Shown piece by piece: positions 48,469-51,337 of a stretch of DNA of 64,000 nucleotides. Made by a program: the position numbers and the translations under genes. The DNA is from an uncultured SAR202 cluster bacterium (GTDB lineage Bacteria; Chloroflexota; Dehalococcoidia; Lucifugimonadales; Lucifugimonadaceae), in assembly GCA_902620405.1 (NCBI GenBank), contig CACNIC010000001.1, positions 1 through 64,000 on the forward strand, given 5' to 3'. How positions within the stretch are numbered: position 1 is the first letter of the stretch; every line of letters starts with the position of its first letter. Below the pieces are notes generated by a model. It was not told where the DNA came from. It worked only from the letters and a program-made list of their open reading frames with translations, and did not search any database.

Positions 48469-48488
48469 AAAAGAACAAATGTTCTTTT
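48469..48488. promoter_or_regulatory. inverted repeat AAAAGAACA-AA-TGTTCTTTT containing GAAC-N4-GTTC (Gram-positive-type LexA/SOS-box-like)
   Basis: Perfect 9-2-9 dyad 20 bp upstream of fmt in the fmt<>dnaA intergenic region. Confidence 0.45.
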
Positions 48489-48708
48489 AAACTAAGCTGT
48501 GAAAAAAAGAACAGGTTATTTCATTATTTCCCAGATTTTTGTGGGAAATTTATTTAAATTACTATTGCCTAAATTATTGTCTTAAATGTAATGTTATATC
48601 TATCAAATATTTATGAAAATATTTTAATTTAGAGTCTTCTAAATTTTGGCATAATGCATCCTGTCCTAGGTGTACCTTTGTCTAAATTTAGGGCTGGAAA
48701 GGGGGTTT

Positions 48709-49995
48709 ATGAACATTGAAGATTTATGGCGCAAGGCACTAAATATATTGCAGAATGAAATAAACCCTAATAGCTTTAACCAGATGTTTAAAAACATTAA
48801 ACCAAAAGCTCTAACTAAAGACACTATCGTTCTTTTAATTGAAAACTCATTCCATAAAGATGCAATTGAAAAAAGGTTTTTTGATCATATTTCTGTCGCA
48901 GTAAATGAAGTTTCAGATATTAAATTAAAACTGGAAATTGTTGGTGTTGACCCTGGCAAAACTAAGCCTAAGGCAAATAAAGCAAATATTGACTTACATA
49001 AATTTACTTTTGAAAATTTTATTGTTGGCTCTTCAAATGAGCTTGCCTTTGCTGCAAGCAAGCAAATTTGTGATTATGAGTTGAACGATTTTAATCCTCT
49101 TTATATTTATTCAGATGTTGGGTTAGGAAAGACCCACTTACTTCTATCTATTCATAGAAGCTTAACTTTAAAAAATATTAACTCAATATACACATCTTCA
49201 GAAAGGTTTACTAATGAATATATAGAAGCTATAAAGCTTAGAAAAACAGATGAGTTTAGAAAAAAATATCGTAACTGTGATGCCTTGCTAATAGACGATA
49301 TACAGTTTTTAGGTGGTAAGACACAAACACAAGAAGGCTTTTTTCATACTTTTAATGAACTCTTTTTAAATAACAAAAAGATTGTTATAGCAGGTGACGA
49401 TCCTTTAAAATTAGTTGATTTGGAATCAAGGCTTGTTAGTCGTTTTCAGTCTGGGTTAGTTGTGGATATTCAGGCCCCTGACTATGAAACAAAAGTTGCT
49501 ATTATTGATCATAAATGCACTTCTTTTAACCTAACTCTTTCTGAAGACATTGTTGATTATGTAGCAAATTTGTGCCAAGTAAATGTTCGGCAGATAGAGT
49601 CAATAATTAATAGATTAAAAGCAATGTCGTCCTTAACTAATCAAGAGATATCTCTTGAAAATGCTAAATCAATGATAATTGGTTTCGATAAAATCAAGTT
49701 AAATAATAAACCTGAGCCATCTTTGGTCCTTCCAGCTGTTGCTGCCGCAACTGGTGTTTCAGAAGATGAAATAAAAAGTAGTAGTAGGTCAGAAAAAATC
49801 GTTAACGCAAGAAGGCTTTCATGCTTTGTTTTAAACAAAGATTTAAACTTAACAACAACTGCATCTGGATCTATATTAAATAAAAATCATGCGTCAGTAA
49901 TAAATGGAGTAAAGTTTGTTGAAAGAAAACTGAAAAGTGATTTTGATCTTCGTTATTGTCTTCAACAAATTAGAAATACATTAAAAATTAACTAA
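48709..49995 (+). CDS. dnaA: chromosomal replication initiator DnaA (start refined from the 48670 ORF)
   Basis: SDVGLGKTHLL, LLIDDIQFLGGK; ATG at 48709 preceded by ggaaaggggg; divergent signature LNKNHASV. Confidence 0.96.
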   Translation: MNIEDLWRKALNILQNEINPNSFNQMFKNIKPKALTKDTIVLLIENSFHKDAIEKRFFDHISVAVNEVSDIKLKLEIVGVDPGKTKPKANKANIDLHKFTFENFIVGSSNELAFAASKQICDYELNDFNPLYIYSDVGLGKTHLLLSIHRSLTLKNINSIYTSSERFTNEYIEAIKLRKTDEFRKKYRNCDALLIDDIQFLGGKTQTQEGFFHTFNELFLNNKKIVIAGDDPLKLVDLESRLVSRFQSGLVVDIQAPDYETKVAIIDHKCTSFNLTLSEDIVDYVANLCQVNVRQIESIINRLKAMSSLTNQEISLENAKSMIIGFDKIKLNNKPEPSLVLPAVAAATGVSEDEIKSSSRSEKIVNARRLSCFVLNKDLNLTTTASGSILNKNHASVINGVKFVERKLKSDFDLRYCLQQIRNTLKIN

Positions 49996-50164
49996 CATTC
50001 CCTTTGTTAATTATTGTTAATTACAATAAAAAATAATTTATTATGCTTTTTATTAACATTTAGAAATTTTTTCTCTACTTTTTTTTAAAAAGTGTTAATT
50101 TATTCAAGTTTAATTAACATTATTAACATAGTTAACAATCTTATTATTATTACAAACAAAAAAA
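49996..50164. other. oriC: candidate oriC: AT-rich dnaA-obg spacer with seven TGTTAAY-like motifs
   Basis: Motif cores at 50005, 50015, 50093 (+) and 50050, 50112, 50120 (-), plus AGTTAACA at 50130; tandem TTGTTAATTA at 50004-50023; TTATTAACA twice. Confidence 0.5.
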
Positions 50165-51337
50165 ATGAAAAACAAAGTTAAAATAATATTAACTTCTGGA
50201 AGTGGTGGAGCTGGTTGTGTTTCTTTTAGGAAAGATAAATTTGTTTCTAGAGGTGGACCCGATGGGGGAGATGGGGGAGATGGGGGAGATGTAGTTTTAA
50301 TTCCAAATAAAAATATGTATGACCTCGATTGTTTTTATGATTTCCAAAAGTTTACTGCAGGAAGTGGTGAGCCAGGAGGAAAGAAAAATAAAAATGGAAA
50401 ACGAGGGAATGACCTAGAATTAACGCTCCCATTTAACTGTGAGGTAAATATATCAGGGGAAAATAAAATTATATTAAACAAAAGAACTATATTTCTTAAA
50501 GGTGGAGAAAAAGGTAAAGGAAATATTAAATTTAAATCATCTATTAATCAGGAGCCTTTATTAGCTGAATATGGAGAAAATGGCACTACTAAAGAAATTG
50601 AGGTCATATCTAATAATTTTCCTCAAATAGCAATAGTAGGCGAATCAAATAGTGGGAAGTCGTGGTTATTAAACAAATTAACTGGATCAAAGACAAAAGA
50701 AGCAGATTATGTTTTTACAACGCAAGAACCATTTGCTGCACAATTAAAAAATGATATTAAAGAGGCAAAAATCATTGAGATACCAGATTTTTTTAATGTA
50801 GAGAAAGCTGAAAAATTTTTACCTTTATTAAAAAAAATGAAAGTTATATTAATAACAATTCCAGAGAACTGTTTAGAAAAAGAATATGTAACAAATATAG
50901 TTAATAAAATTGAGGGCTTTGTAGATAATGATTGCAAACTCATAAGCGTGGCATTATGGAACGAAAACAAAGGAGAAGACAATAATAAAATCTATGCTAA
51001 TTTTAATAAAAAAAATTTTACAGAAGTAAGAGAATTATTATTAAACATATCAGATCCAATTATCTCTCTAAAACCCAAACCTAATGAGTATATACACACA
51101 CCAAATGTAATTAATCAGGGGAAAATGTATTCATATTCTCCAAAAACAAACACGATAAAAGTATTAAATGAAGAAATTATAAGAATTGCAAAAGGTAGCA
51201 ATTTAAATAAACCAGAAACACAATTTCAATTTCACAACGTTTTGAATAAAAAAGGTTTTTTTCAACAGATACAGAATGATGGTATAAAAAAAGGTGCAAC
51301 AATAAAATTTGAAGACATTGAGCTAGAATACAAATGA
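50165..51337 (+). CDS. obg: Obg/CgtA-family protein with degenerate G domain
   Basis: RGGPDGGDGGDGGDVVL glycine-rich domain, GESNSGKSW P-loop, C-terminal OCT domain. Confidence 0.93.
   Translation: MKNKVKIILTSGSGGAGCVSFRKDKFVSRGGPDGGDGGDGGDVVLIPNKNMYDLDCFYDFQKFTAGSGEPGGKKNKNGKRGNDLELTLPFNCEVNISGENKIILNKRTIFLKGGEKGKGNIKFKSSINQEPLLAEYGENGTTKEIEVISNNFPQIAIVGESNSGKSWLLNKLTGSKTKEADYVFTTQEPFAAQLKNDIKEAKIIEIPDFFNVEKAEKFLPLLKKMKVILITIPENCLEKEYVTNIVNKIEGFVDNDCKLISVALWNENKGEDNNKIYANFNKKNFTEVRELLLNISDPIISLKPKPNEYIHTPNVINQGKMYSYSPKTNTIKVLNEEIIRIAKGSNLNKPETQFQFHNVLNKKGFFQQIQNDGIKKGATIKFEDIELEYK

Follow-up and report, generated by a model that had tools for sequence, protein, structure and literature searches.

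How replication begins when the initiator DnaA carries an altered DNA-recognition signature, and whether the sites such a protein would bind have changed along with it, are questions raised by a stretch of 64,000 nucleotides (the window) located at the start of a contig of 195,578 bases, of which it makes up the first 64 kb, in a MAG (G000) of 0.97 Mb and 70% completeness. Here, dnaA is neighbored by fmt, found on the other strand, on one side and by obg on the other. Although the gene is described below from an ATG, the longest dnaA frame begins at a GTG at 48670. The features of the coding region are:

48709 to 49995, forward strand: dnaA, 428 residues from the ATG at 48709, with DnaA_N, AAA+ and domain IV regions (Pfam)
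49711 to 49992, forward strand: domain IV, a predicted DnaA-box-binding helix-turn-helix (Pfam, E. coli alignment, AF2 model)
49777 to 49800 (approximate to a codon or two), forward strand: KSSSRSEK and its surroundings, a basic loop that retains the counterpart of E. coli Arg399
49876 to 49899, forward strand: LNKNHASV, the altered recognition signature, which is short of one Gly relative to GGRDHTTV
50165 to 51337, forward strand: obg, encoding a GTPase and bounding the candidate oriC downstream

Profiles for DnaA_N, Bac_DnaA and Bac_DnaA_C all matched the encoded protein. The AAA+ domain III bears the DnaA signature (PF00308, E=5.5e-54), with the GLGKTHLL sequence conserved and the other motifs ordinary, while domain IV scored 43 bits against PF08299, for which the cut-off is 31.5. 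By family membership, the window gene encodes a DnaA, probably the ordinary replication initiator of this organism. The preliminary description had held that a second canonical dnaA would speak against an altered specificity; a profile search of the 70%-complete MAG revealed no second DnaA containing domain IV (PF08299). The same MAG does encode, at 8436-8828 of contig C17, a protein of 273-283 residues whose AAA+ region matches Bac_DnaA (PF00308) weakly and in which Bac_DnaA_C was not matched. This protein, kept in all members of the genus having dnaA, is possibly a helicase loader or Hda-like.

Alignment of domain IV (...EIKSSSRSEKIVNARRLSCFVLNKDLNLTTTASGSIL-NKNHASVINGV...) with its E. coli counterpart revealed the changes K415N, P423T, G431N, R432K, D433N, T435A, T436S and H439N, together with deletion of G430. 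As such, the peptide and position first reported for the altered signature, its setting beside a normal AAA+ domain and the replacement of Asp by Asn433 and of Thr by Ala435 were all confirmed. Of the base-contacting residues taken from secondary sources, namely, R399, P423, D433, H434, T435 and H439 (PMC7561715, PMC5043019), only R399 and H434 are kept. This does not exclude the protein from the DnaA family, since canonical relatives likewise differ among themselves at P423 and H439. The KSSSRSEK peptide, initially considered a reduced basic patch, has indeed lost basic charge at positions 397, 398 and 401. The Arg within it is nonetheless the aligned counterpart of R399 in E. coli, the residue named for minor-groove contact (PMC5742627), and is thus retained. 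Given the retention of Arg399 and His434, the mode of recognition is not wholly different. The AF2 model predicts an intact helix-turn-helix (pLDDT about 88-94), in which the recognition helix would begin at the conserved His of LNKNH (residue 394, counting Met). When this model was used in a fold search, DnaA structures ranked first (8btg, 1l8q and 3r8f).

The signature is not a sequencing error, as it is repeated, in identical form, in an independent MAG of the same genus (G003; domain IV 98% identical) and, in varied form, as LNKNHSSI with the same deletion in another (G009). Across the genus, N431-K432-N433-H434 was present in nine of the nine DnaA proteins found. Alignment with relatives, as proposed at the outset, gave a family norm of GG[KR]DHS[TS][VI], and Asp433 was kept in most of 80 diverse dnaA loci obtained in a broad search. 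When the same recognition helix was sought in 400 Chloroflexota genomes, the best matches outside the genus scored 73 bits, as compared to 157, and canonical or near-canonical signatures were read at the loci ranking highest.

Attention was also directed to the short gap between dnaA and obg, which contains the following features:

49996 to 50164 (169 bp), no strand assigned: dnaA-obg intergenic region, candidate oriC by virtue of the densest ATTAACA cluster and synteny with TTATCCACA clusters in relatives
50005 to 50013, reverse strand: box-like site TAATTAACA, alignable in same-genus genomes
50015 to 50023, reverse strand: box-like site TAATTAACA, alignable in same-genus genomes
50050 to 50058, forward strand: box-like site TTATTAACA, from the motif scan
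50093 to 50101, reverse strand: box-like site AAATTAACA, approximately where GNKNH relatives have a TTATTCACA site
50111 to 50119, forward strand: box-like site TAATTAACA, first of three contiguous sites
50120 to 50128, forward strand: box-like site TTATTAACA, second of the three
50129 to 50137, forward strand: box-like site TAGTTAACA, third of the three
50141 to 50152, reverse strand: DnaA-trio-like repeat, TTATTATTATTA on the forward strand and 5'-TAATAATAATAA-3' on the reverse, 3 bp past the last box

The gap thus holds seven NNNTTAACA sites (at offsets 9-, 19-, 54+, 97-, 115+, 124+ and 133+), six of which include ATTAACA. Six copies of this word in 170 bp were reached in 0 of 5,000 dinucleotide shuffles, in none of which did any 7-mer having G or C attain six, and no other cluster on the 195-kb contig exceeds two copies. 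The altered array reported next door to dnaA is therefore real and clustered, although the word is better given as ATTAACA or TWATTAACA, since exact TTATTAACA occurs in the array only twice and is not enriched across the genome (54 sites, as compared to 58 for reversed-pattern controls). Exact TTWTNCACA likewise appeared at chance level genome-wide (99 sites and 93 in reversed controls), with none inside the array. No TTAT[CT]CACA cluster, as would define a canonical-box origin, was found on the 195-kb contig, nor was a canonical TTATCCACA cluster found in the 70%-complete MAG, and GC skew along the contig, which tracks gene strand and marks no origin, showed no turn at dnaA.

That a single draft genome simply combines an unusual, neutral variant of DnaA with chance matches to AT-rich words, these being common at low GC, is hardly credible. 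The shuffles and the density of the cluster speak against it, and recurrence of both signature and array in G003, and of a varied form in G009, amounts to conservation that refutes noise.

A DnaA-box/DnaA-trio system was taken to consist of tandem boxes, a short spacer and an NAN trio repeat of at least three units. Between 50111 and 50152, tandem boxes are followed by a 3 bp spacer and four TAA units. By analogy, this segment matches the layout of a DnaA-box/DnaA-trio unwinding module and represents a putative unwinding site. The arrangement is conserved in most of the genus, with the boxes being of the altered word. In the Bacillus subtilis basal unwinding system (boxes 6/7 and DnaA-trios; PMC8287927), tandem boxes, a short spacer and a trio on the expected strand are similarly seen, with trio polarity as described elsewhere (PMC10316083), whereas here the three boxes are contiguous, with no gap, and all present the altered word.

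To follow the box word across the family, 76 genomes from 12 genera were considered, 72 of which gave a Bac_DnaA_C match, nearly all exactly one. In these, dnaA and its flanks were read, and box words were obtained for each genus by de novo k-mer enrichment with no box assumed. Genera g3, g7 and g9 combine TTATCCACA boxes with GG[KR]DHS, g2 and g4 combine TCCACA/TTCCAC-type boxes with the same signature, and g12 combines TTATTCACA/TTTCCAC boxes with GGKDHST or GGRDHST. Genus g8 (29-36% GC) has TTATTCACA boxes and TTATTCA-type k-mers with GGKDHST or GNKDHST, while g5 (27-33% GC) has TATTTCACA boxes, TTTCACA as the top k-mer and GGKNHST. In g6, NTTTSAACA boxes (TTCAACA and TTGAACA being among the top k-mers) accompany GNRNHST in most species and GKRDHST in two. 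In g1, the genus of the window, species with GNKNH (among them those reading GNKNHAT) bear TAAATAACA boxes (AAATAAC seen 14 times, with 1.1 expected; AATAACA 15 times, with 1.5 expected), and LNKNH species bear TWATTAACA boxes, ATTAACA being the top 7-mer (15 seen, 0.7 expected). Co-evolution of domain IV with the array, as originally suggested, is thus supported by a box word that shifts with the domain IV clade in related genera.

All of these words sit in the same syntenic gap, where relatives carry textbook TTATCCACA clusters. Within g1, the first reverse box pair, the final forward boxes and TTATTATT are in register, and the trio-like TTATT repeat remains. At mid-array, a TTATTCACA site is kept in G001, G004 and G008 and TAATTCACA is found in G005; at approximately the position of the former, G000 and G003 have a TTAACA site. 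This synteny also bears on the idea that the ATTAACA array is an operator of another regulator, acting on obg or dnaA, with DnaA using other, unseen sites. The intergenic region also serves as the obg promoter region, and the role of the array is deduced from its sequence. Still, such an operator is improbable given the textbook clusters of relatives at this very place and the lack of a canonical cluster on the 195-kb contig. The motif, moreover, departs from the DnaA box in steps, is arranged head-to-tail beside the trio repeat and shifts with domain IV.

Genus g10 (L055, L059-L064), a GC-rich sister genus, stands apart. Its DnaA, a very long branch, reads GGRPHST[IV] and has Pro433 and Gly399, which is possibly a more radical change than that in the window's genus. 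In g10, dnaA and obg are not neighbors, and inspection around the former and immediately before the latter revealed no recognizable box cluster, such that g10 was dropped as a further test. Two full-length dnaA genes (L079 and L080) were noted in G062 (genus g11), which may be a mixed bin, given that the genome is 7% contaminated.

Which residues track the box change was considered by comparing DnaA proteins associated with boxes having C (C6) or A (A6) at position 6. Replacement of the Asp and first Thr, the cause implied at first, does not account for the shift. Asn433 occurs with TTTCACA boxes, hence with C6, in g5, and Asp433 occurs with the A6 box TTTCAACA in two g6 species (G024 and G085), so that D433N is neither required for the A6 box nor enough to account for it. 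T435A/V was likewise rejected as a single cause, since G006, G009 and g6 lack it, having Ser435 together with A6 boxes. N431 alone was also set aside, as G049 reads GNKDHSTV yet has TTATTCACA boxes. Other positions follow the boxes more closely. Met411 was lost in 17/17 readable A6-box DnaA proteins and in 1/41 of the C6-box group, position 415 was non-basic in 16/18 A6-box genomes and in 0/41 with C6 boxes, position 431 was other than Gly in 18/18 and 1/41, respectively, and position 441 was V or F in the A6-box group and Q, L or H in the C6-box group. A mixture-model tree of DnaA lacking domain IV placed g1 and g6 together (98/94), a grouping to be read with caution given the long branches. 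Because g1 and g6 would then form one clade and the C6-to-A change may have been a single event, no single residue can be assigned to that change and the residue/box correlation carries little statistical weight. When identity to canonical relatives over the DNA-contact set was expressed as a ratio to that over the AAA+ domain, LNKNH DnaA gave 0.62, whereas no other group fell below 1.04.

Taken with the intact fold predicted by the model, these observations lead us to favor, with a probability of roughly 0.7, an ordinary DnaA acting at a dnaA-obg origin, whose double-stranded DNA recognition code has shifted jointly with its boxes. From the sequences, we infer that DnaA binds the array sites and that the region serves as oriC; domain IV would bind the boxes and load DnaA onto the adjoining DnaA-trio, upon which the duplex would open. 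On the stem leading to g1 and g6, the invariant C6 of the canonical box would have become A once, with changes in the helix-turn-helix area at 411, 415, 431 and 441 and, in most cases, at 433. Two further words would then have arisen within the genus of the window, TAAATAACA in GNKNHAT species and TWATTAACA in LNKNH species, the latter species having also lost Gly430, gained T436S and shed the TTATTCACA site of most GNKNH relatives. We tentatively consider it a serious possibility that this represents a true change in initiator specificity, passing in stages from the canonical box to TTATTCACA, to NTTTSAACA or TAAATAACA, and to TWATTAACA, with A6 preferred, the system orthogonal to TTATCCACA origins, and N431, N433 and A435 making putative new contacts within a shortened helix-turn-helix turn.

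The main rival to such a switch is relaxation, a somewhat doubtful yet plausible course in which DnaA of an AT-driven, drifting lineage came to tolerate A or C at position 6, C5 and C6 were lost through mutation bias, constraint on the protein was lost and canonical boxes are still bound. The genomes are of 27-39% GC, Mollicutes boxes read TT(A/T)TC(C/A)ACA, with the A. laidlawii consensus TT(A/T)T(C/T)(C/A)ACA including TTATTAACA (PMC3322544), and weak CAACA-type sites already lie beside canonical boxes in g2 and g12. Moreover, canonical binding may not be lost, since a TTTTTCACA site preceding dnaA is conserved, as is TTATTCACA within the candidate origin of most GNKNH species. On the other hand, g5 and g8, just as AT-rich at 27-36% GC, keep CACA boxes, on which basis AT content alone was rejected as the cause. 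The chance-level occurrence of TTWTNCACA and its lack from the G000 array also count against relaxation, and uniform loss of C5 and C6 in an array that keeps C8 suggests selection for a definite word.

That DnaA and its boxes co-evolve is established in principle, and according to a 2015 review, boxes of all studied origins lie within two mismatches of TTATCCACA, save for those of Thermotoga (PMC4285127). Here, TTATTAACA, TAATTAACA and TAAATAACA differ from TTATCCACA by two, three and four mismatches, respectively. Among solved DnaA structures, that of Thermotoga maritima (2z4r) is also the closest in domain IV sequence, and its signature, FNRSHPVV, similarly lacks one residue and Asp433. In tma-oriC, the strongly divergent box ACCTACCAC/AAACCTACCACC lies by trio repeats (PMC10316083, PMC4285127), yet that box is an unrelated GC-containing word, whereas the present one derives from TTATCCACA by stepwise shifts toward AT, of which living relatives still show intermediates; ACCTACCAC was not among the top k-mers, the array being of ATTAACA. 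Helicobacter and Arcobacter, of the Epsilonproteobacteria, have TTCAC-core boxes changed at position 5, tentatively via domain IV helix 5 (PMC5043019), but keep C6, while here C6 is A and up to 4/9 positions differ from E. coli (TAAATAACA). Mollicutes and Acholeplasma, compared by boxes alone, resemble the present case in having C or A at position 6 in AT-rich genomes, with TTATTAACA fitting the A. laidlawii consensus (PMC3322544). They nonetheless use both letters, whereas the G000 array lacks C6 and T2 and T4 also vary in the genus. No report of such a DnaA/box shift in Chloroflexota was found in the open literature. A switch in recognition is difficult to evolve, since the initiator, which is essential, and its origin can only change jointly; this small AT-rich group of Chloroflexota offers a natural series for how the code of origin recognition can change, its graded proteins and origins in close relatives making that code testable by domain swaps. 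Origin finders built on TTATCCACA will miss such origins.

Several sites were noted upstream of dnaA. TTTTTCACA, at 48498-48506, is a single exact match to TTWTNCACA and sits in an imperfect inverted repeat, CTGTGAAAAAAAGAACAG (48497-48514), that is nearly invariant in the genus; TTTTTCACA itself is conserved throughout g1 wherever this part could be read, G006 excepted. This element may be a canonical DnaA box that has persisted, or else a different operator. AGAACNNNNGTTCT occurs at three places in the whole MAG and at none in a reversed control. One copy, conserved in the genus, lies between fmt and dnaA (window 48472-48485), while a tandem pair at 1952-1987 of L111 (contig 105952-105987) occupies the promoter of a gene for a 109-residue Cys-rich HTH protein adjoining cinA. 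As AGAACNNNNGTTCT resembles a Gram-positive-type LexA box, the latter protein is possibly an autoregulated repressor also controlling dnaA/fmt. Finally, an inverted repeat, TTTCCCA-N-TGGGAAA, is found at 48526-48550 of the window, and TTTCCCA/TGGGAAA also appears upstream of dnaA in other genera (e.g., g2, g3, g5 and g9).
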